DNA of 23,623 nucleotides from a virus: positions 1-23,623 of the IMG/VR virus record IMGVR_UViG_3300035698_009536. One strand, 5' to 3'. Within the stretch, counting starts at the first letter, position 1. The number at the start of each line of letters is the position of its first letter. Positions 4,144-22,758 of this stretch are shown one piece after another. The translations under genes and the position numbers were made by a program. Below the pieces are notes generated by a model. The model saw only the letters and a list, made by a program, of their open reading frames with translations, ran no database searches and was not told the origin of the DNA.

Positions 4144-4491
4144 CTATTCACCCGAAAGTTTGAGGATGGTTCCATTGGGGATCGATCCATCAGCGGCGAC
4201 CGGAGAGACTTTGAGAGTCTGAGCCTCCTGCACCAGCCAGTTTGCTATCATTCTACAGAGGGAACAACCCTCCGCGTCCTTGGGTAGCATCTGCGCGACT
4301 TCTGCGGCGGGGGTGTCGAGGATGGCTTTTTTGGCCGCGTTCCTCTGGTGGGCGATGGCATTCCAGAAAATCGTTGCGGCCACATCGGGGCAATAGTCTT
4401 CGCCGTATTCGACTTCTCCATCAGCGTCTATGGATACGAGTGTCTTCCCATCCTTCTGTAAAACAAACGCAAAAACTTTGGCTTCTAACAC
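4144..4491 (-). CDS. Hypothetical tail-module protein, 115 aa, GTG start
   Basis: The start is GTG at 4491, preceded on the minus strand by AAGGAG six bases upstream. The gene begins 10 bases after the distal tail gene stop and ends 3 bases before the giant tail gene, so it is part of the same transcript. The protein is soluble with no membrane segment. It has a short cysteine pair (GCSLC, about residues 79-83) and another cysteine at about 34 (DYCPD). I do not recognise the family. Position between distal tail and tail-tip genes suggests a tail tip or baseplate component or assembly factor, by inference only. Confidence 0.8.
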   Translation of the reverse strand: MLEAKVFAFVLQKDGKTLVSIDADGEVEYGEDYCPDVAATIFWNAIAHQRNAAKKAILDTPAAEVAQMLPKDAEGCSLCRMIANWLVQEAQTLKVSPVAADGSIPNGTILKLSGE

Positions 4492-4501
4492 GTCGGTCTC
4501 C

Positions 4502-5959
4502 TTAGAGGAACAATTTCCGGTGGTATGTCTTTACTTCGGCAAACGTCGTGCCCGCTGGAATATAGAAGGCGGCTTTGGGAGGCAGCAGCGGAGGCATCCC
4601 ATTTTTCGTCCAGTTGTTGAGGTCGTTTTTTTTGGTCAGGTCGTCCTCGTATTTTGAAGCTGTCGCAGCATCGAAATCCAGCACCGACCGCTCGGTAGAC
4701 AAAAGCGCGGCGCTCCGGGTGTAGGTGGTGATGACCGGCTCGAAGTCCTGCCATTTGTAAACAAAGGCAGACATCTGGTCGTCGGTGGGTTGATACGGCA
4801 GGGACATGACGCGGTAGTAGGTAGCGTCGGGGGCCGAGGCACCACCGACTTCTCCCAGGCGGACGGTGACAGCGGCCCCGGTGTACCCCCCGGTCGTCGC
4901 ACTCACGGCGAGGCGAACTCCGTCTTTATAGATCTTCTGGCCATCAGCGCCGAAGGAGAAAGACAACACAAATGGAGCAGCGCTTGCCGTAAATGTCTCT
5001 GTGGGTGTATAATTCGCTGTGACGAAGTTGGCCGCGCCGGTCCTCAGTCGAAAGATGAAAGTGTCGGAGGTGAAGTTGTAATAAACGCTGACATATTCAT
5101 CGGCGCCGACCTCTGCGGTAAGAAGATAAACGTTTGCCGCCACGTCAAACGCGAAATCAGGAGATACGACGATGGCCCAAGCTCCCTCCGGGGCGTTCGC
5201 CCTCACGCCTGCCCATGTAGTCGCCCAGGTGTTTAGTTGCTCATACCGCCCGCCCTCGTCGCCCGGTTCAAACGCTGTGGCATCTGCCGCTGCACCCGAG
5301 TCGCCCACGACAGTGCCCAGCACCGTGGTGGCATCCATAGTGTAGAGGGGGCGCCACCAGAACTGACTATTTGCAATGCGGAACGATGCCGGATCCACCG
5401 CGCCGGTCAACTCAATGGTCGGCTCTGCTGGGCCGTCGCCTACATCGATTATTTCCCAGTGTTCTCCGGCATCAGAGAAGGCCAGCTCCGTGGGGGTGTT
5501 TGCGATTGCATAAGGTGAGGTCATTATCAGCGGGATAGTGATACTCGCCGCCAAGGTGTCCACGGGGAGGTTCTGCTCTGTGGGGCCGATGGGGCCTCGG
5601 TAAATCACCGGCCAAAAGCGATCGGTGTATTCCGAGGTCTCCAGCCGGATCGTTGCAGCGGTATTGTGAAGACTGCCCACCAGGGTATCGAGCTTTGCCT
5701 TGAGGGCCGCGAAGTTTGTGCGGAAAGCAGAGACGCTATCTGCGTGAATCTGCCCTTGGATAAGTATTTCTCGGCCCACGTATTGGGCATCGAATGCCGT
5801 GGTCCCGTGCAGGCCGAGGAATGCCTCCGTCCTCGCCGCCAGAACAGCCATGCCGATGTTGTTGGTGTTGAGGATGGTGACGCCGTATTGATGGAGGTCC
5901 GTCCCCCCGAGCTTCACCTTCCACGATGCGTTGGTAAGAGCCGATGGTGCTGTGGACAT
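4502..5959 (-). CDS. Distal tail protein (Dit-like) with a concanavalin/LamG-like carbohydrate-binding domain
   Basis: 485 aa. It starts two bases after the tape measure stop (AGG six bases before ATG). The gene directly after the tape measure in siphophages normally encodes Dit, which caps the tail tube and forms the hub for the tip. Residues ~15-150 fit a Dit N-terminal domain (KVKLGGTDLHQYGVTIL, then GREILIQGQI). Residues ~260-400 read as a LamG/concanavalin-like beta sandwich: SPDFAFDVAANVYLLTAE, FIFRLRTGA, and GQKIYKDGVRLA, the last being a typical turn-strand of this fold. Such inserted carbohydrate-binding modules are known in so-called evolved Dit proteins and help bind cell-surface sugars. 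The C-terminal ~80 residues return to a tail-like segment. Domain calls are by eye. Confidence 0.72.
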   Translation of the reverse strand: MSTAPSALTNASWKVKLGGTDLHQYGVTILNTNNIGMAVLAARTEAFLGLHGTTAFDAQYVGREILIQGQIHADSVSAFRTNFAALKAKLDTLVGSLHNTAATIRLETSEYTDRFWPVIYRGPIGPTEQNLPVDTLAASITIPLIMTSPYAIANTPTELAFSDAGEHWEIIDVGDGPAEPTIELTGAVDPASFRIANSQFWWRPLYTMDATTVLGTVVGDSGAAADATAFEPGDEGGRYEQLNTWATTWAGVRANAPEGAWAIVVSPDFAFDVAANVYLLTAEVGADEYVSVYYNFTSDTFIFRLRTGAANFVTANYTPTETFTASAAPFVLSFSFGADGQKIYKDGVRLAVSATTGGYTGAAVTVRLGEVGGASAPDATYYRVMSLPYQPTDDQMSAFVYKWQDFEPVITTYTRSAALLSTERSVLDFDAATASKYEDDLTKKNDLNNWTKNGMPPLLPPKAAFYIPAGTTFAEVKTYHRKLFL

Positions 5960-13182: not shown

Positions 13183-14130
13183 TTATTGATCTCCAACAAA
13201 GACTCGAATCTTGAAGTTGTCCTTGTTGGAATACTCCATGGCCCTTGCAACATTCTGGCCGGTGGTCCCCGCCGCATCGGTGACAGCGGTGGCACTCGAG
13301 GCCAGTTCTAGAATGGTTCCGGGTTGAGCCCGTAGAGTGGCAGCGTCAACCACGCCGTCAACAGGTCCATAGATGCAAACATATCCCGAGTCCTGGTCTG
13401 CGATAGTTGCAATGGCCACACCGGCGAACAAGGTATTTGCGCCAGTGGCGGCGATCACATTAGCATAGGGAATGGCTTCCACCTGGACAGATAGGGCGCC
13501 GTCTACGCGAACAAGAGAGACTGAGTCTACCTGTGTCCAGTATTTCCGACTAGTGCCGTCCGTCATCATACTAAAGGCTTCGGCGCCATCGGTAAGGACC
13601 AAGGTGTCGAGGACTGAGCCTGTTGTTCCTAACCTGACTCCCCACACGGTAATCGTATCCGCAGCGACGGTGCCGTTGGCAATCGCCAAAAGGGTGAACT
13701 TGCCCACGTCGTTGAGTAGGCTGTCAGCCGTTCCGGCTCCCGCTCCTACATTGGCAGAGGTAGAGTCAACGAGAACGACTCTTGTGCTGTCCCACTGCAA
13801 GAAGGCGCCAGCAGTAATAGATGCCGCAGAGTTGTTGGCCACCTTGAGTAAAATAGAACCACTGGGCCCACCAACAATCGTTCCAATCTCCGCCCGTTTA
13901 AAGTTGGTCGTGTCTACGACCGTGTCACCCAGGCGCTTGGTGTCTGTGCCGAGGAATCCTTTGCCGGTGTTGGATGGCCGAATGCCGCCCAAGTCCCCGA
14001 TTTTCTGGGTACCCCAGATGACGGCAATGGCTCGACTTCGCACCTGCGAGAAGGAATCAGAAAACAGCATCACCGAAATTGCCACCGCAGCGAAGGCGAT
14101 CAGCAGTGGGTGCTTATTGAAAAATTTCAT
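13183..14130 (-). CDS. Capsid-region protein with a signal peptide-like N-terminus, 315 aa
   Basis: ATG at 14130 with TAGGAG about eight bases upstream. The N-terminus is MKFFNKHPLLIAFAAVAISV followed by MLFSDSFSQ: two lysines and a hydrophobic core of about 15 residues, then a possible cleavage point after S-F-S. That is the form of a Sec signal peptide or membrane anchor. The rest (30-315) is beta-rich with many threonine/serine/aspartate strands (VANNSAASITAGAFLQWDS, DTITVWGVRLG) and ends AMEYSNKDNFKIRVFVGDQ, like surface or decoration proteins. It lies directly downstream of the major capsid gene and a strong hairpin. A secreted or envelope-directed product in a head gene block is unusual. 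Function unknown. Confidence 0.75.
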   Translation of the reverse strand: MKFFNKHPLLIAFAAVAISVMLFSDSFSQVRSRAIAVIWGTQKIGDLGGIRPSNTGKGFLGTDTKRLGDTVVDTTNFKRAEIGTIVGGPSGSILLKVANNSAASITAGAFLQWDSTRVVLVDSTSANVGAGAGTADSLLNDVGKFTLLAIANGTVAADTITVWGVRLGTTGSVLDTLVLTDGAEAFSMMTDGTSRKYWTQVDSVSLVRVDGALSVQVEAIPYANVIAATGANTLFAGVAIATIADQDSGYVCIYGPVDGVVDAATLRAQPGTILELASSATAVTDAAGTTGQNVARAMEYSNKDNFKIRVFVGDQ

Positions 14131-14218: not shown

Positions 14219-15172
14219 CTACGCCACAGCGTCTTTGATCAGGTATCCAGCAGCAACGGCAATGATCTTCTGCTGATACTCGGTCTCGACTTTGTGGCTG
14301 TCGCCTGCTGGGTTGTTCTCCCGCCAGGACGAAACTTGCACTTCTTCGGATCCCGCACGGGTCAGCGTGGCACCCAGCGTGTGGGTCCGCAGGCCGCGAG
14401 GGGATGGGTTCGTGTAATGCACCAGGAGAGACTTGCCCCAGATGGGGGCAATAACATCCGTTTGCCCTTCGTTGGCGCTGTCGTAATTCGACAGGCCGAT
14501 GTTGATGTTCGAGGCCGTCAAGTTGAAGATGGCCGCGAACTGCGCGATGTTGACGCCGCCGCCCGTGACGTTGATGTAGCGAGCCACGATATCGGGGTGA
14601 TGGCGGAGCTCATCCCACACGGCGCCACCCATCGTAATGGAGATGCTTTCCTCCGTTTGACTGACACCGTCGCGCACAGAGGTGATACCCGTCTGTATAT
14701 CGCCGATGGGATCCGAAACCCCAGAGGTGATATCAGACCACTGAGAAGTGCCCGAGAGGGTGGTGTTGTTGGTGATGTTTGCCGTGGCGAAAACCAGGGT
14801 GGCCGCTCGAATTTCCATGGCCAACAGGATCTGATCCATGATGTTTTCCACCACCATCTCTTCGGCGGCATCGGGGCCGAGGGCGTGGTTGGCGGCTTCC
14901 CGATCAGACAGGTTTCCATAGAGGTCGTAATACTGCAGCTCATAGGTGTCAGAGCTCATCTGATAGTCAACGCGGCGGGCGGGTTCTTTGAACCCTCGCG
15001 GGCCATCGTTGTTGTTGATGAAGTTGCTCCGGTCCTGAATGTAATAGGTGCCCGACTTATCAATGACGGGGATGGAGGGGAGCACCTTTTTCGCGATGAA
15101 CTGGCCGGGACTGTAACCTACCGCAAATGCCGTCAACGGCACATTCGGGGTAATGTCTTGAGGGGCAGGCAT
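14219..15172 (-). CDS. Major capsid protein
   Basis: 317 aa with AAGGAG seven bases before the ATG. It forms the HK97-fold shell. Evidence: position after decoration and protease/scaffold genes; N-terminal LTAFAVGYSPGQFIAKKVLP; a loop-strand region then a long helix (EEMVVENIMDQILLAMEIRA, about 104-123) as in the spine helix; WDELRHHPDIVARYI and FNLTASNINIGLSNYDSANE, recurring segments of a widespread capsid family; and IWGKSLLVHYTNPSPRGLRTHTLG near the C-terminus. The length is normal for a capsid protein lacking a large delta domain, consistent with a separate scaffold. No cleavage site can be assigned with certainty. Confidence 0.88.
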   Translation of the reverse strand: MPAPQDITPNVPLTAFAVGYSPGQFIAKKVLPSIPVIDKSGTYYIQDRSNFINNNDGPRGFKEPARRVDYQMSSDTYELQYYDLYGNLSDREAANHALGPDAAEEMVVENIMDQILLAMEIRAATLVFATANITNNTTLSGTSQWSDITSGVSDPIGDIQTGITSVRDGVSQTEESISITMGGAVWDELRHHPDIVARYINVTGGGVNIAQFAAIFNLTASNINIGLSNYDSANEGQTDVIAPIWGKSLLVHYTNPSPRGLRTHTLGATLTRAGSEEVQVSSWRENNPAGDSHKVETEYQQKIIAVAAGYLIKDAVA

Positions 15173-15252: not shown

Positions 15253-15645
15253 CTACGCGCCGAGGTAAGAGCGGCCTTGGCATAACACTTCGGCGATGTC
15301 TCCAGAAGCGTAGGTGGTATCTACAGAGCCGAATACGATGTCGTTGTTGGCGACTTTAATGACCGCCAAGCCATTGGCATCGGTGCCAACCTGGCCAGCC
15401 GTGAGGCCTGCCGATCCAACTTTGACTTTTACCACGGTGCCCGCCTGTAGTGCGCGGAAGTCTGCCGGGTCGCCTTGGGTGTCCGGTTTGTCATAGAGGA
15501 CGCACTCTACGAGGTCTCCGGTTCCCGAGCACACCGTCATCTGATCGGCGGTGGTCCCTTCGGCCTTCATGATGTAGTATTGCTTGGTGCTCAGATCAGC
15601 ACCGGCTCGAAACCCAGAAAGGGGGACAGAGCTGTCAGAAGCCAT
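15253..15645 (-). CDS. Capsid decoration / cement protein
   Basis: 130 aa; AAGGAG seven bases before ATG. The order protease/scaffold, then small beta protein, then major capsid is the usual place of head decoration proteins, which trimerise on the shell to stabilise it after expansion. The sequence has LSTKQYYIMKAEGTTADQMT, then TVVKVKVGSAGLTAGQVGTD and ends DIVFGSVDTTYASGDIAEVL, similar to the DUF2190-type cement proteins with repeating A-G-x-x-V strands. No Ig-like or signal sequence is present. Confidence 0.75.
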   Translation of the reverse strand: MASDSSVPLSGFRAGADLSTKQYYIMKAEGTTADQMTVCSGTGDLVECVLYDKPDTQGDPADFRALQAGTVVKVKVGSAGLTAGQVGTDANGLAVIKVANNDIVFGSVDTTYASGDIAEVLCQGRSYLGA

Positions 15646-15704: not shown

Positions 15705-16397
15705 TTACTTTTTGTATTTCCAGGCGTCAACTTTTTTGTCGCCGAACTTTTCACGCGCCAGTGTGATAACTTCGCCCTGGACTTTGCCCTCGGCCACACC
15801 GGCGGCCACGAACAGCGCCACGTCATTTTCGACGGTGGCATCCTCGGGGTCTTCGCTGGCGCCCTGGTTGGTAAACAAACCAGAGTCCAGATCCGGGCGG
15901 GCCAGAATGTCGGCGCTGACTTCGTCGAAGTCCACCAGCAGGCGGGCCTGGATGCGGGTGCGTTCTGCTGAGGTGAACTTCTTCACGTTGTCGGCGAGGA
16001 ACTTCTCAACTCGGGCCGTCTTCAGATCTGCCTGGGCGCTGACGCCTGCAGCGGCACCGGCTTCCAGCTCGGCAAACTTCGCTTCGGTCAAGACCACTTT
16101 ACCCAGGACCACCGTGGGGGTCCCGTCGCTGGCTGCGTTGATCGCGGCCAGATCGGTCTCGGCTTTTGTCAGCCGGGTGTGATCCTCAACTGAGAGGATG
16201 ACGCGCCCAGGAAGGGTCCCTTCCGTGAGGGCCGTCTGAACTTGCTCGGGGGACATATCGTCACCCGCAACGCTGACGATCGACGTGAGAATCTGACCGT
16301 TGGCATACAACAGCTCAAAGGCCTGCTCACTGTGTTCGTCTGTCAACTCAGTCCCCTCATCCAGCCCGAGGACCTCGCGGATTTTGGCTTCGTTCAT
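15705..16397 (-). CDS. Nested scaffold protein from an internal in-frame start
   Basis: In frame with the protease gene, ATG at 16397 (residue 248) is preceded by a perfect AGGAGG seven bases upstream, better than the site of the full-length gene. It would yield a 230-aa protein equal to the C-terminal scaffold part. Mu (I/Z) and lambda (C/Nu3) use the same nested layout so that free scaffold is made in excess over protease-scaffold. The preceding segment (about residues 212-245, rich in alanine, proline, threonine) looks like a linker, supporting a domain boundary here. Confidence 0.7.
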   Translation of the reverse strand: MNEAKIREVLGLDEGTELTDEHSEQAFELLYANGQILTSIVSVAGDDMSPEQVQTALTEGTLPGRVILSVEDHTRLTKAETDLAAINAASDGTPTVVLGKVVLTEAKFAELEAGAAAGVSAQADLKTARVEKFLADNVKKFTSAERTRIQARLLVDFDEVSADILARPDLDSGLFTNQGASEDPEDATVENDVALFVAAGVAEGKVQGEVITLAREKFGDKKVDAWKYKK

Positions 16398-17138
16398 TGC
16401 CTTTCCTCCTGTTACCTCCGGGCTTTTGGGAGCCGGAGCGTTGGGTGTTTGTGCGCCCTCACCCGGCGCTGTGAACGCGACTTGCGTTTTGCTGCTTGGT
16501 GCTTTTGCTGCGACAGTGGAGGTCTCTACCCAGATGCCCTTGCCGCGCACCCAGCCGGCGGCCTTTGCATTCTCCGGGCCGTAGGACAGAGACCCGTGGT
16601 TGTAGTCAACTACAATTTCAGTGGGTTCGTTGACCTTTTCGCCCGATACGTGGGAGCCGACGACTTCGACATTAGCCACCATTTCGTTTAAGTCATCGAG
16701 GGTGATGTCGAATTCGCCATACCAATAGTGATAGAACCGCCCTGTGGTGATGATCTCTATTTCGGAGGTCTTCCCATCAGGGCCCACCTCTACCACGGCC
16801 ATCCCTTTGACAAAGGGCCGGTTGACCAGGCCTACCGCCAGGAGGGCAGCGCCGATGTGCTTGCCATTCTTTTCGCTGAAATAGTCCCGGTCAAATTCCG
16901 CGCTGATGTATCTGAACTCTTCGTTGGTGATATACTCGATCGCGTTGTCGGTCCAGTGGATCTCCCCCTTGAGGGTGGCCAGGTCGTCGCCCTCGGCGAG
17001 CTTGAGAGTGGCAGGGCCCAGGAGATCAGTGAGCGGCATGATAAGCCCAGGCCGAGCAGCTTTGATCTCCGCGAGCAAAGACATCTGATCATTTCGGAAT
17101 TCCTGAAGGCTGTCACGAAGCTGTTTGATCGAGGGCAT
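15705..17138 (-). CDS. Mu I-like prohead protease with permuted motif order, fused to scaffold
   Basis: 477 aa; AAGGA about eight bases before ATG. Mu I-type proteases normally show, in order, a GRF-like strand, a V-D-x-x-H box, AAGW, a W-T box, an E-Y-R-Y-I-S-P box and a L-T-N-x-P box. Here the latter part comes first: EIHWTD (59-64), EFRYIS (74-79), GLVNRPF (103-109); then GRFYHYWYG (133-141), VDYNH (177-181) and AAGW (193-196). The likely catalytic residues, Ser79 and His181, therefore appear in reverse order, and the two halves are joined by about residues 112-130. Residues 248-477 are a helical, acidic scaffold-like region (EAKIREVLGLDEGTELTDEH). The enzyme would cleave scaffold and capsid proteins during prohead maturation. 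Catalytic roles are inferred from the family. Confidence 0.75.
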   Translation of the reverse strand: MPSIKQLRDSLQEFRNDQMSLLAEIKAARPGLIMPLTDLLGPATLKLAEGDDLATLKGEIHWTDNAIEYITNEEFRYISAEFDRDYFSEKNGKHIGAALLAVGLVNRPFVKGMAVVEVGPDGKTSEIEIITTGRFYHYWYGEFDITLDDLNEMVANVEVVGSHVSGEKVNEPTEIVVDYNHGSLSYGPENAKAAGWVRGKGIWVETSTVAAKAPSSKTQVAFTAPGEGAQTPNAPAPKSPEVTGGKAMNEAKIREVLGLDEGTELTDEHSEQAFELLYANGQILTSIVSVAGDDMSPEQVQTALTEGTLPGRVILSVEDHTRLTKAETDLAAINAASDGTPTVVLGKVVLTEAKFAELEAGAAAGVSAQADLKTARVEKFLADNVKKFTSAERTRIQARLLVDFDEVSADILARPDLDSGLFTNQGASEDPEDATVENDVALFVAAGVAEGKVQGEVITLAREKFGDKKVDAWKYKK

Positions 17139-17143
17139 ACCGG

Positions 17144-17275
17144 TTATCCTTTGGAGAAAAATTCATATTTCAGGGTGGAGACAAAGAAGAGAGAGAAGAG
17201 CGCAGCCGTGCAGAACGCGAGAATGCACCCCCATACGAAGAGTCTCACTACGTCGATTTTGCGAGGGTTGTTCAT
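17144..17275 (-). CDS. Very small membrane protein, 43 aa
   Basis: The ATG at 17275 overlaps the stop of the upstream gene in an ATGA, showing translational coupling. The stop lies five bases before the protease gene start. It reads MNNPRKIDVVRLFVWGCILA, then a hydrophobic run to about residue 35 (FCTAALFSLFFVST) and KYEFFSKG. This gives one transmembrane helix with a positive N-terminus. It may be part of a lysis set with the two upstream membrane-protein genes (small holin-like or spanin-like component) or a membrane adaptor. The family is not recognised. Confidence 0.6.
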   Translation of the reverse strand: MNNPRKIDVVRLFVWGCILAFCTAALFSLFFVSTLKYEFFSKG

Positions 17276-17688
17276 GGCCGAGATATCCGAGTTGCCCACT
17301 GTAAATCATCCTCTGTTTGCAACGTCACCTTTGCACTCAAAAAAGCGTCAATGTAATAGGGGGCCATTGCCCTCAGCTCCTCCGTCTTGTTTTCACCCCT
17401 CCAGTGTGAGACGCAATCGTCAAGGTATTCAATCACCTTCTGTTTATCCAACGTCTCAGCCTCAACTAGGGGTGGCTTTGTGTTATGTGGCATTGGAGGC
17501 ATAGAAGAAACATCAACAGGTGGTAGCATATTGCGAGTGATCTCTGTGCAAGTTTCAATGCCGGGGCTGTCTACGTTTACGGCGGAAGATCCGGTGACTT
17601 CTTGCTCTATCCGCCCACGAATAAACCACCCAAGTACGAAAAAGAACGCACCGACCGAGAAATAAACTAAGGTTTCAATAGATTCCAT
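17272..17688 (-). CDS. Membrane-anchored protein, 138 aa
   Basis: The ATG at 17688 overlaps the upstream stop (TAATG). Residues ~6-24 (TLVYFSVGAFFFVLGWFIRG) form an N-terminal transmembrane helix. The rest is soluble, with a proline-rich stretch (about 55-75) and helical segments such as DKQKVIEYLDDCVSHWRGEN and EELRAMAPYYIDAFLSAKVT. One N-terminal anchor plus a soluble domain is compatible with an inner-membrane spanin-like protein, but the long coiled coil typical of Rz is not obvious. I do not assign a function. Confidence 0.7.
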   Translation of the reverse strand: MESIETLVYFSVGAFFFVLGWFIRGRIEQEVTGSSAVNVDSPGIETCTEITRNMLPPVDVSSMPPMPHNTKPPLVEAETLDKQKVIEYLDDCVSHWRGENKTEELRAMAPYYIDAFLSAKVTLQTEDDLQWATRISRP

Positions 17689-17882
17689 TATTCAGGGGCC
17701 TTTGCGTTTTCGTCCTTCTCTGCCGCATAATAGAAGGTCATCGCCATGCCGATGGCTCCCCAGAATCCTTCTGAGATCTGGGTGCTAGTGACCTGGCAGT
17801 AGCACACGGTGCCGATAAGCAGAAGAAAACAAACGCCCCGGATAAGCTTTCTGATGGTGGTGTCTCTCTCTGATGCACTCAT
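17688..17882 (-). CDS. Small two-helix membrane protein, candidate holin
   Basis: 64 aa; AGGAG eight bases before ATG. A basic N-terminus (RDTTIRKLIRG) precedes a hydrophobic helix at about 12-30 (LIRGVCFLLLIGTVCYCQV). A second apolar segment at about 38-53 (GFWGAIGMAMTFYYAAE) is followed by a charged tail DENAKAPE. Small size, two membrane segments and a charged C-terminus fit holins, which time host lysis by forming holes in the inner membrane. No endolysin gene is in the window, so this stays a candidate. It is translationally coupled to the next gene. Confidence 0.65.
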   Translation of the reverse strand: MSASERDTTIRKLIRGVCFLLLIGTVCYCQVTSTQISEGFWGAIGMAMTFYYAAEKDENAKAPE

Positions 17883-18372: not shown

Positions 18373-20580
18373 TCAACTCTGCGGGGTGAACCGGTAGATG
18401 TAAACACACCGGCATTGTCCGCCACCCAAGCAGGCTTTATTCGGGGGCATAAACGAATAGTAATCGTTGGTGTTCACCTGGAAGACCCGCCCATCCAGGG
18501 GCAGGCACTGCTCGCAAGTGTTCTGATCAAGGATGGCCGAGTATATCACTTCCTCTATGAATTCGACGTTGGCCTGTGCTTCATTGTCCCTGCCCAGGTT
18601 AAAAGACTCGCTGACCAGGAGGGCCGACTCTTTGCGCGTGGCCGCGTCGAAGGTCTCCTTGACTGCGGCCTCTATGCCTGCCAGGTCCGCTTCGGTGACA
18701 CCTTCGCCCTTGGTCCTCATCAATGTCGCGGCAGCGGTGATTGCGAGGCTTGACGCACGGTTGCCCATCTGTGTGACGAAGGCGTCTACTTGGAAGGTGA
18801 TCAGCTTGGCCAATTCCTCGGGGTCGAAGGGGTCGTCTCGCAATTCCTGCCCAGCCGCTTTGTCGGCGACTTTCTGCTGTGCGTCGATCTCGTCTTGGAT
18901 GGTGCGCCGGCCATAGTTGAACACGTCTTCGGTGATCTCGAGGATAGGCTCGACGGCTGCGTCGATCATCTCCTGGGAGATCTCTACGTCTTTGAAGCCT
19001 GCGGGGTCCCCGGATTCGATGACTGCTGCGATCTGTTCTTTGAGGGAAGCGGCCCAGGTCTCCCGCTCGTCCTGCATAGAATCAACGATCGCGTCTTGTG
19101 CGTCGTCCTGGCGCCCGTCGATCTCCCTGAGATGCATTTTCTTTTCGAGGTCGGTGAGGTCCCGCCAGAAAGGGCGACGGGACGCGAGGGTTAGCGCGCC
19201 GTGGTCGTGGGGCTTATCTTTGATCTCCGCCGCTTCCGGTGCAACCTCTTCGTCTTCTACCTGCTCGCTTTCCACCTTGGCCGGTAGGTCGAGGATCTTG
19301 CGTATCTGCGCTTCGAGGTCGTCGTCGGGTGTAATGAATCCCCCGGTTGTCAATTTAGCGAGGGCCTCAGAGAGAACAACGGCATCCTCTGGCTTGAGGT
19401 CTGACCAGCTTATCTCGCAGATGATGTCCTCAGCGTCGGCGTAGTTCATTTTCAACCAGGGGTCTATGACCTGCTGGTTGAGGCAACGTTGTATCGAGTT
19501 GGCGAAAGACTCGAGGGACAAGAGGAAGATCTTGAACATCGAATCACCCAGTGCTCGGGAGCCCGTCTGTGTGGTGCCCAGCTTGATGGCCATCGCCAGC
19601 GCGCTCATGGCGATCTGCTCGTCACAGTAATCGATAAACGCCTTGGGGTCCAAGCGCGAGGTGGAGTTATGCCCGAGGATCTCGAATTTTACATCCTCCG
19701 CGTTGATGATGTAGTTTTGTTCACCTACTTTGAGCTTTTCCAGAATCGCTTTTATCTTGGTCTTGATGTTCTCGAATTTGCCTACCGTCGTCGCCATGGG
19801 TATCCCGACACCAAAGCGCTCGTATCCGATGAGGGCTATTTTCGATAGCTCAAATTTCCAATACCACGGGGTGTAGGCAGCGCGGAAGCCGGAGCGGCCC
19901 TCGAAATTATCACCCTCTTGTTTGAAGGAGCAGTGGACCAGCTTGAACTTGGCCGCTTCTGCTGAGGGCTCTTCGGGGATGGCGATTCTCTTGTAGGTGC
20001 CGTTCTTGTATACTCGCTGAACGATCCCGGCGAGCTCTCCGTCTTCGTCCGTCCACTCATCAATGGTCCGCTGTGCTCGGTGGTAGATGCCTTTATACCA
20101 GGTCATGTCGCCATCGACTTCCCAGACCTTCTCCATTATCTCGTACCCAAACGGGAACGACAGCAGGAGGTGGTGCAGAAGCCGGTCAAAGTCGAGGCGC
20201 CGGAAGAGCATCTCTTCTGCAGCCGCTTTTATCTCGGGGAGATCGACGCGCTCCTCTCCATTCATCCGATAAGCTTCGATGGTCCACTCGGCACCTTTGA
20301 CCGGCAAGGTGACCAGGTTCTCCACGGCTTCGACCTGGGCGTCGCTGCGCATGTGCTGATATTTAGCGGCAGCGGTGACGCCCTTGAGCTTGGGGTTGTA
20401 CTCCTCGGTTTCAATGTATCCCCGGAAGAACCGATTGCCCGACGCGCCCAGGGCTGCATCAAGTCCTGACTCTTCGCGGGGGCCATCGGCCAGGGTCAGC
20501 TCACCAGAGGGGCCTCGGGCGGGAGTTGTGGAGGCGTCAGCCGTTGGCGTTGTCCATCTAAATAAGTCAAAGAGTGACAT
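18373..20580 (-). CDS. Portal protein fused to a MuF-like minor head domain
   Basis: 735 aa; AGGGAG a few bases before ATG. Residues ~50-435 match a Mu gp29 (DUF935)-type portal: VKGAEWTIEAY (about 94-104), FEGRSGFRAAYTPWYWKFEL (226-245), YERFGVGIPMA (253-263) and a long helical stem (SMFKIFLLSLESFANSIQRC, 347-366). After an acidic linker (about 436-460) and helical region, residues 685-729 show the MuF/SPP1 gp7 signature: D-Q-N-T-C689-x2-C692, LDGRVF, PP (712-713), C717 and C723-R-C725. Portals form the ring through which DNA enters; MuF domains sit inside the head and may be injected. In Mu these are two genes. Here they are one frame. The PP-x-H of many relatives is replaced by PPNKACLGGGQCRC. 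Confidence 0.88.
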   Translation of the reverse strand: MSLFDLFRWTTPTADASTTPARGPSGELTLADGPREESGLDAALGASGNRFFRGYIETEEYNPKLKGVTAAAKYQHMRSDAQVEAVENLVTLPVKGAEWTIEAYRMNGEERVDLPEIKAAAEEMLFRRLDFDRLLHHLLLSFPFGYEIMEKVWEVDGDMTWYKGIYHRAQRTIDEWTDEDGELAGIVQRVYKNGTYKRIAIPEEPSAEAAKFKLVHCSFKQEGDNFEGRSGFRAAYTPWYWKFELSKIALIGYERFGVGIPMATTVGKFENIKTKIKAILEKLKVGEQNYIINAEDVKFEILGHNSTSRLDPKAFIDYCDEQIAMSALAMAIKLGTTQTGSRALGDSMFKIFLLSLESFANSIQRCLNQQVIDPWLKMNYADAEDIICEISWSDLKPEDAVVLSEALAKLTTGGFITPDDDLEAQIRKILDLPAKVESEQVEDEEVAPEAAEIKDKPHDHGALTLASRRPFWRDLTDLEKKMHLREIDGRQDDAQDAIVDSMQDERETWAASLKEQIAAVIESGDPAGFKDVEISQEMIDAAVEPILEITEDVFNYGRRTIQDEIDAQQKVADKAAGQELRDDPFDPEELAKLITFQVDAFVTQMGNRASSLAITAAATLMRTKGEGVTEADLAGIEAAVKETFDAATRKESALLVSESFNLGRDNEAQANVEFIEEVIYSAILDQNTCEQCLPLDGRVFQVNTNDYYSFMPPNKACLGGGQCRCVYIYRFTPQS

Positions 20581-20588
20581 GGTGCTCC

Positions 20589-22241
20589 CTATAGTGGCTG
20601 GCGTAATGCGGAGGACAAGCTGGTCCCGCTGCTGGCTTCTTCGTTGGCTGCGAGGATCTCATCAATGTCCGTGGCCTCTTCCAACAGTAGGCGATTGAGT
20701 GCCTGCGTCATCGTATCCACCATATCGTTGTATGCCCCCTTGGGGAAGAGCTTGCACTCTCCTATGAATTCGCTGACCCAGGGGTATAGCTTGGGGTGCG
20801 GTAGCCACACGTCCCCGGCCTGAATGAATGGGGACACTGCATGGGCCCGGGCCTCTTTGCCACCCTCAACAGGAAAGGGGATGAGCCCGCCTATGATGCG
20901 CTCGAGCTGGGAGATGACGGCGGGTCCGTTGGCCTTATCTTCGATGAGCTTCTCTGATGCACCAGGCCAGCGTTCGGTCAGATCTTTGACCGCCTCGCAG
21001 GTTTGGACGAAGCTGAGGTGGTCACAGATCTGGTCGCGCAAATAAGCGCGAGAGCCGAGGTGGCTCCACAGTTGACCACACACTCGACTCGAGGTCTCTG
21101 TGCCCTTGAATTTCATGTCCCACGATTGGATCTCGGTATCCATACGTGGGGGTATTGGCTCTTGTTCGCACTCTACCCATTTGTCGCCGATCTTGACATA
21201 GTGCGGCTCGGGGGTGGCGCCTGCGGGGTACCAGAACTTCCACCAGTGCTCTTTCAGGATGCCGCCACCTGCAGGGGATGGGGCCTGCTGAAGCTGACCG
21301 GCCACGCCATAGGATCCGAGGCGGAGTTTCCAATCGTCAACGACGTCTGCGGGGAAGCGTTCCGGCCAGAGCAGTTCATCTTGCTCCGTCCGGGGGTCAA
21401 ACTTCCCGTTGAAATACACGGTGGTGGTCTTCTCGTATTCCATTGGCAGCTTGAGGTGGACGTATCCACCCTGGGCCAGGACGTGCCCTGAGAGGTCTCG
21501 CTCGTGGACCCGCTGCATGACGATGACCTTGGCGAAATTCTGCGGGTCATTCGCTCGCATTGACATCACCTGGTCCCACCAGGTCAGAGTGGATTCGCGA
21601 ACCGGGTTGCTGTGGGCTTCTCGCACGTTGTGAGGGTCGTCAGATACGATTCGGTCGCCGCCTTCGCCGGTCGCTCCTCCATCTACCGAGGTGGCCAGCC
21701 GATACCCGGTCTTGTCATTCTCAAATCGGATCTTTGCATTCTGGTCAGAGGTCAGCTTGAACCGGGATCCGAAATGTTTTTGATACCAGGGCGATTGGAT
21801 GATGCGCCGGCACTTGAGCGAGTCACGAATGGCAAGGGGAGCGGCATAACTGGAATAGAGAAAGCGCGTCTCCGGGTATATGGCCCATTCCCAGCACGGC
21901 CAGAACACAGAGACAAGCAAAGATTTCATGAATCGGGGCGGCATATTGATGAGGAGGTTCTTGATCTCCCCGGTGGTGACGGCTTCGAGGTGATCGCAGA
22001 TAATGTCGATGTGCCAGTTATGGATATACGTCCGCCCAGGCTCTACGACGTGCCACGCAGCACGGGCGAAATCCACGAGGTTTGGGACCCCGTGGACAAG
22101 GCGATCGATCTCAACGCGCTCCTGGTCTTTAGTGTAGACCTGGAGAGGGCCGTCAACCTCCTGCATCTTCAAGCGCCTTATCTCGTCGCGCTCTGATGCG
22201 GTCGCATAGGACCAAAATTCGCTGGTCTCTTGCGTCGTCAT
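20589..22241 (-). CDS. terL: Terminase large subunit
   Basis: 550 aa from ATG at 22241, chosen because GAGGAAGG sits about eight bases upstream; the frame is open to 22283. The protein is the packaging motor and nuclease. Walker A is MPPRFMKS (100-107), Walker B is RIVSDDP (197-203), and IVMQRVHERDLSGHVL (about 240-255) is the coupling region. The RNase H-like nuclease shows D375 in QSWDMKFKGT, D435 in LIEDKANGPAVI and D506/D509 in AYNDMVDTMTQAL. The length is normal. It overlaps the small subunit gene by 89 bases, so the two are translated together. Motif spacing and the PPRxxKS P-loop fit the broad Terminase_6 group. Confidence 0.95.
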   Translation of the reverse strand: MTTQETSEFWSYATASERDEIRRLKMQEVDGPLQVYTKDQERVEIDRLVHGVPNLVDFARAAWHVVEPGRTYIHNWHIDIICDHLEAVTTGEIKNLLINMPPRFMKSLLVSVFWPCWEWAIYPETRFLYSSYAAPLAIRDSLKCRRIIQSPWYQKHFGSRFKLTSDQNAKIRFENDKTGYRLATSVDGGATGEGGDRIVSDDPHNVREAHSNPVRESTLTWWDQVMSMRANDPQNFAKVIVMQRVHERDLSGHVLAQGGYVHLKLPMEYEKTTTVYFNGKFDPRTEQDELLWPERFPADVVDDWKLRLGSYGVAGQLQQAPSPAGGGILKEHWWKFWYPAGATPEPHYVKIGDKWVECEQEPIPPRMDTEIQSWDMKFKGTETSSRVCGQLWSHLGSRAYLRDQICDHLSFVQTCEAVKDLTERWPGASEKLIEDKANGPAVISQLERIIGGLIPFPVEGGKEARAHAVSPFIQAGDVWLPHPKLYPWVSEFIGECKLFPKGAYNDMVDTMTQALNRLLLEEATDIDEILAANEEASSGTSLSSALRQPL

Positions 22242-22758
22242 CAAGAAAGCCTTCCTCGGTTTGGATTTGCACAGGGGCGCCATCTTTGCCGGTGATTTCT
22301 TGCTTGACAGGTGCGTCTATTCCGAATATCTCACAGCGCTTTTGTATGCACCACTGGATACCCGTTAAAAATCTGGGGTCCCCGCTGAGTGTCTCGGTGC
22401 GGATGCTTGCTTTCTGTTTGGGTTGAGTGATCGGCTTGCCCTCTTCATCGAGCTTCACCCCGCCCTCGGCTGTTTTGGTGGTGGTCGTAGCCTCACCGGC
22501 CGATGCCTCCCAGGCATCCCAATACGTGCGCTCCAGTCGGTCCACCTTGGCCAGCTCTTCGGCTTTTCGTTTGTCTGTGGCTTCGATGGACGAGGCGAAC
22601 CACCGCTTGTGTAGGACTTTGAGATCATAGCCAATCTGCTGGCGGCTGACATTAAGCTGCTCTGCTATCTCTCTTTGTGTCTGTTTCTGGAGATACAGGC
22701 GGGCGATTTGCTCCAGGTCTATTTCACGCTGAAGGGCTGATCGTTTCGGGGCGGCCAT
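22153..22758 (-). CDS. terS: Terminase small subunit
   Basis: 201 aa; GGGAG about nine bases before ATG. Residues ~25-50 (KQTQREIAEQLNVSRQQIGY) form a helix-turn-helix for binding the packaging site. Residues 55-80 are helical and charged, followed by an acidic, proline-containing linker and C-terminal segment that likely contacts the large subunit. It is the first gene of the late block, directly downstream of the promoter embedded in the palindrome. The 3' end overlaps terL by 89 bases. An HTH regulator is a theoretical alternative, but position leaves little doubt. Confidence 0.88.
   Translation of the reverse strand: MAAPKRSALQREIDLEQIARLYLQKQTQREIAEQLNVSRQQIGYDLKVLHKRWFASSIEATDKRKAEELAKVDRLERTYWDAWEASAGEATTTTKTAEGGVKLDEEGKPITQPKQKASIRTETLSGDPRFLTGIQWCIQKRCEIFGIDAPVKQEITGKDGAPVQIQTEEGFLDDDARDQRILVLCDRIRARRDKALEDAGG

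Follow-up and report, generated by a model that had tools for sequence, protein, structure and literature searches.

The window, by which we mean the whole stretch of 23,623 nucleotides analysed here (IMG/VR record IMGVR_UViG_3300035698_009536), carries a set of phage head genes on its minus strand, Table 1. The gene between the small membrane proteins and the putative decoration protein is a single uninterrupted frame in the ORF listing. Its third-position GC is high throughout, which fits one coding frame. In the initial annotation the product was described as a prohead protease with Mu I-like motifs in permuted order within one frame, and all six motifs are indeed found at the residues given there. 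The first set consists of W62-T63, E74-F-R-Y-I-S79 and L104-V-N-R-P108, and C-terminal to it follow G133-R-F135, V177-D-Y-N-H181 and A193-A-G-W196.

Table 1. Head genes of the window and subdivisions of the protease gene. Positions are those of the window; L-numbers are related loci described in the text.
Feature	Position	Strand	Evidence or remark
Large terminase subunit	20589..22283	-	PF17289, phrog_38
Portal protein fused to Mu F-like head protein	18373..20580	-	PF06074, PF04233; conserved in L089, L114 and L117
Two small membrane proteins between portal and protease	17272-17882	-	No family matches
Circularly permuted Mu I-like protease with C-terminal scaffold, 477 aa	15705..17138	-	ORF, PF10123, phrog_328
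N-terminal extension, residues 1-51	16986..17138	-	Helix 4-28 in the model; sequence poorly conserved
Half B, residues 52-117, C-terminal in the usual order; contains the VxWT strand, FRYIS with Ser79 and LVNRP	16788..16985	-	Canonical-only profile 65-128, 8e-20
Ser79, predicted catalytic serine	16902..16904	-	Column invariant in 81/81 homologues
Junction GPDGKTS, residues 118-124, old C-terminus to old N-terminus	16767..16787	-	Alignment with canonical sisters
Half A, residues 125-208, N-terminal in the usual order; contains GRF, helices, VDYNH with His181 and the AAGW strand	16515..16766	-	Canonical-only profile 2-60, 3.4e-9; model
His181, predicted catalytic histidine	16596..16598	-	Column invariant in 81/81 homologues
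Pro/Ala-rich linker between protease and scaffold, residues 209-247	16398..16514	-	Sequence
Internal Shine-Dalgarno AGGAGG inside the linker	16405-16410	-	7-nt spacing before ATG
Scaffold domain, residues 248-477	15705..16397	-	Internal ATG of residue 248 at 16395-16397, in frame
Likely decoration protein, a small product encoded between the protease and capsid genes	15253..15645	-	40% identity to its positional counterpart in L114
Major capsid protein	14219..15172	-	phrog_1005 major head protein, 1e-57

Directly after the capsid gene lies a gene for a 315-aa protein (13183-14130, minus strand). It begins with MKFFNKHPLLIAFAAVAISVMLF, which looks like a signal peptide or membrane anchor and is odd for a head gene, and it has a weak match to a phage cement protein (E 0.022).

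The protease scores 55.4 bits against the Pfam family PF10123 (Mu-like_Pro), above the curated cut-off of 25.2, and is matched twice, in reversed order relative to the profile. Residues 56-117 correspond to profile positions 78-134 (2.3e-11), and positions 40-68 are matched farther towards the C-terminus of the protein (1e-4). The profile phrog_328 (head maturation protease) gives the same reversed two-part matching, and the assignments to both profiles are unchanged when the halves are searched separately.

As a cleaner test, we built a profile of 129 positions from canonical-order proteases only. On the window protein its positions 65-128 are matched in front and 2-60 behind, Table 1. The two matches tile the profile, and only 4 positions are left between them, at the cut, which falls directly after AAGW-V-R in the hairpin preceding the VxWT strand. 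All six distinct permuted ORFs known to us from the searches described below are matched twice above noise by this profile, at about 65-129 and then 2-60. Half B thus comes first, where PF10123 has half A before half B, and we file the protein as a permuted derivative of the family rather than as an ordinary member. A collinear alignment to known proteases, which would have spoken against a permutation, was looked for in the profile searches and none was found; with matches that are non-collinear throughout, the collinear reading is rejected. Of the two predicted active-site residues, Ser79 precedes His181, the reverse of the usual order.

The first permuted relative was found with a degenerate DNA pattern (WT, FRYIS, then AAGW about 113 residues on). 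Two other spacing windows of the pattern returned canonical proteases or chance matches only. The relatives L087, L089 and L090 (IMG/VR) represent one phage type with a protein of 424 aa, which in L089 is collinear with the window protein and 43% identical to it over residues 58-323. An alignment of the B halves used as a query brought in about 70 canonical proteases and a third permuted lineage, L113-L116 (IMG/VR, 470 aa), whose member L114 shares 37% identity with the window protein and is likewise collinear with it. Homologues with the same order, proposed as a check in the initial annotation, do therefore exist, and the profile order together with these two further independent lineages bears out the circular permutation. 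The order could be called in 82 distinct ORFs, of which 76 are canonical and 6 permuted, a ratio that is not a frequency since the search started from permuted sequences.

Several other searches gave no permuted relatives. Single-protein searches of viral and genome contigs returned no relatives of the window protease, nor did a search with the portal protein return any relatives. None of the 80 loci from a terminase search contains a permuted protease, and none was found by the alignment search of genome contigs. In a collection of annotated phages, the three permuted proteins used as queries obtained partial matches to single halves only, and a canonical protein matches the same records over both of its halves, in normal order. 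All permuted members come from uncultured tailed phages.

The window, an IMG/VR virus record, probably comes from a metagenome, and an assembly error or chimera that exchanged two pieces of the gene could be suspected. The same order is found in unrelated contigs of several data sets, each time in a single open frame. These independent lineages refute an artefact, and we give it practically no weight.

In all three permuted lineages the protease is located in the same head module. Portal identity to the window is 38% in L089, 36% in L114 and 30% in the canonical-order locus L117; for the capsid protein it is 27% in L089 and 34% in L114. The window terminase has no match in L089 or L114, which indicates that the head module has been shuffled relative to the packaging gene. 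The head module is in this sense mosaic, with a terminase lineage that differs from that of the other permuted phages and a shared portal, protease and capsid. Two unusual arrangements of head genes were also seen among the loci. In L086 (5323-8022, minus strand), an ORF of 899 aa joins in one chain a Mu I-like protease of canonical order, a stretch resembling a scaffold and an apparent major capsid protein. In L025 (14041-16281), an apparent intein that includes a nuclease-like region splits a Mu F-like head protein; the point of insertion is the conserved HPNC site.

A maximum-likelihood tree was calculated from both halves of 71 sequences (120 columns). The three permuted lineages form one clade (UFBoot 100), which is nested among canonical-order proteases and has the canonical-order L117 as its sister (support 91); the deeper nodes are weak because the alignment is short. 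The topology points to a single permutation of an ancestor with the canonical order. The L117 protease (IMGVR_UViG_3300017971_000912) is 50% identical to the window protein over residues 60-119, and the portal proteins of the two phages are similar, but it has the canonical order, with a single collinear PF10123 match over 16-330 of 330. The canonical sister-group proteases of L117 (4449-5756) and L118 (ORF near 4270-5309) have a ChaB-like N-terminal region, a weak Pfam match in L117 (E 0.011), and the permuted proteins are without it.

We take Ser79 and His181 to be the catalytic pair, from what is established for the prohead protease superfamily. The 81 homologues in which both columns are invariant include the six permuted ones. 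The invariance of Ser79, and of Pro108, is partly selected, as most of the sequences were retrieved through stretches that contain these two residues; His181 lies outside these stretches. The initial annotation had proposed a functional permutation, and the conservation of the two residues supports an enzyme that would still be active. Rearranged enzymes can lose function, and the permuted protein might instead be a catalytically dead remnant that serves as scaffold only, with cleavage carried out by another protease. Given that the histidine of DYxH and the serine of YRYIS are kept in every permuted member at 37-43% overall identity, and that the record, which may be incomplete, holds no second PF10123 copy, we regard such a loss as highly unlikely.

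Residues 1-210 were modelled with AlphaFold2 from an alignment of the six permuted sequences and the halves of canonical proteins placed as separate rows, so that the register within each half is given to the method and the packing of the halves is not. The model is one confident domain (mean pLDDT 85.2, pTM 0.73). Most core blocks reach 90-98, and strands and helices are located where the motifs predict them. The strands of half B are at 52-62, 77-88 and 93-105, and the junction at 118-124 is well ordered, with a pLDDT of about 92. An earlier run with two sequences only gave a pLDDT of 41. The halves are not modelled as two separate non-protease domains, an arrangement that would have contradicted the initial annotation, and we reject it; the model rather favours the view that the permutation keeps the fold.

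Foldseek found no match for the model in the PDB. In a viral library it returned nothing significant, and the partial matches to phage proteins cover 53-60 columns, some at 1.4-1.7 A, with prohead proteases among the weaker ones. Matches to one half are expected for a permuted chain, as Foldseek requires the same chain order, but they are no proof of it.

The main rival to a rewired single-chain enzyme is an active site formed between two chains. In such a domain-swapped dimer, half B would combine with half A of the next molecule, and the permutation would act as an assembly-dependent switch. The cut sits in a hairpin that might swap, and the sequence fits pairing within and between chains alike; activation by dimerisation is described for the herpesvirus assemblin (PMC4498786). 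A swap is not needed, however, since the single chain on its own gives a confident one-domain model whose junction is short and ordered, and we consider it unlikely.

In the single-chain reading, the old N- and C-terminal strands would be joined by the short GPDGKTS loop and the chain opened anew within the hairpin that connects the AAGW and VxWT strands. The polypeptide would take the usual protease fold and bring Ser79 and His181 into a common active site. In all, we hold it very probable that the protein is a Mu I-like head-maturation (prohead) serine protease that was circularly permuted once in the ancestor of this phage group and is active in its rewired form.

The halves of the protease are swapped, but the layout of protease, linker and scaffold and the internal start are intact, as the scaffold is still C-terminal and the Shine-Dalgarno and ATG are kept. 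A matching internal Shine-Dalgarno and ATG are found in L089, in L113/L114 and in the canonical L095, and the regions of L089 and L114 equivalent to the scaffold match scaffold ends of phage protease families. Judging from these sequence signals, the scaffold is probably also made alone from the ATG at residue 248. In Mu-like phages of Pseudomonas the scaffold likewise starts inside the protease gene (PMC4378225), so the permuted gene has the same fused-scaffold, internal-start arrangement.

In function the protein most likely does not differ from other prohead proteases. Its scaffold tail would bring the protease into the procapsid, and a second scaffold product would start at residue 248; the protease would then degrade the scaffold, and possibly trim the capsid protein, before DNA packaging. 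One connection would differ, as the scaffold chain would leave the protease domain after the AAGW strand and no longer after the last strand (LxNRP).

The case suggests that this enzyme tolerates a complete rewiring of its chain and remains functional, with all conserved residues kept. A natural permutation of this kind would reveal which chain connections are dispensable to the fold, and an event that occurred once, with a canonical protein as close sister, is a basis for comparison. It also makes testable whether the site on the protease to which the scaffold is tethered matters. For annotation, the consequence is that collinear methods miss a permuted protease or read half of it.

We know of no circular permutation of a capsid maturation protease. 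The literature searched, with the Cheng 2004 superfamily paper outside that scope, contains no description of a prohead protease in permuted order. That this is the first natural one, and that the moved attachment of the scaffold alters the orientation of the protease on the scaffold or its activation in the procapsid, is a tentative proposal to which we give slightly less than an even chance.

Among the known capsid proteases, assemblin (S21) and T4 gp21 (S77) have the histidine before the serine. Neither has a detectable sequence match to the window protease. The two are reported to be homologous prohead and capsid proteases (review PMC9026906), and PMC12451611 describes the maturation protease as a hallmark protein of the realm to which both tailed phages and herpesviruses belong. 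The closest known system is the family of Mu gpI and Mu-like prophage I proteins (PF10123, phrog_328), which shares with the window protein the motifs, the predicted serine and histidine and the place before the capsid gene, but has the halves in the opposite order, the serine preceding the histidine in the window protein. Elsewhere, natural circular permutations are known from saposin/swaposin and from C2 domains, where the old termini were joined, new termini arose at another site and the fold was kept. The rearrangement of the window protease would be the same kind of event.
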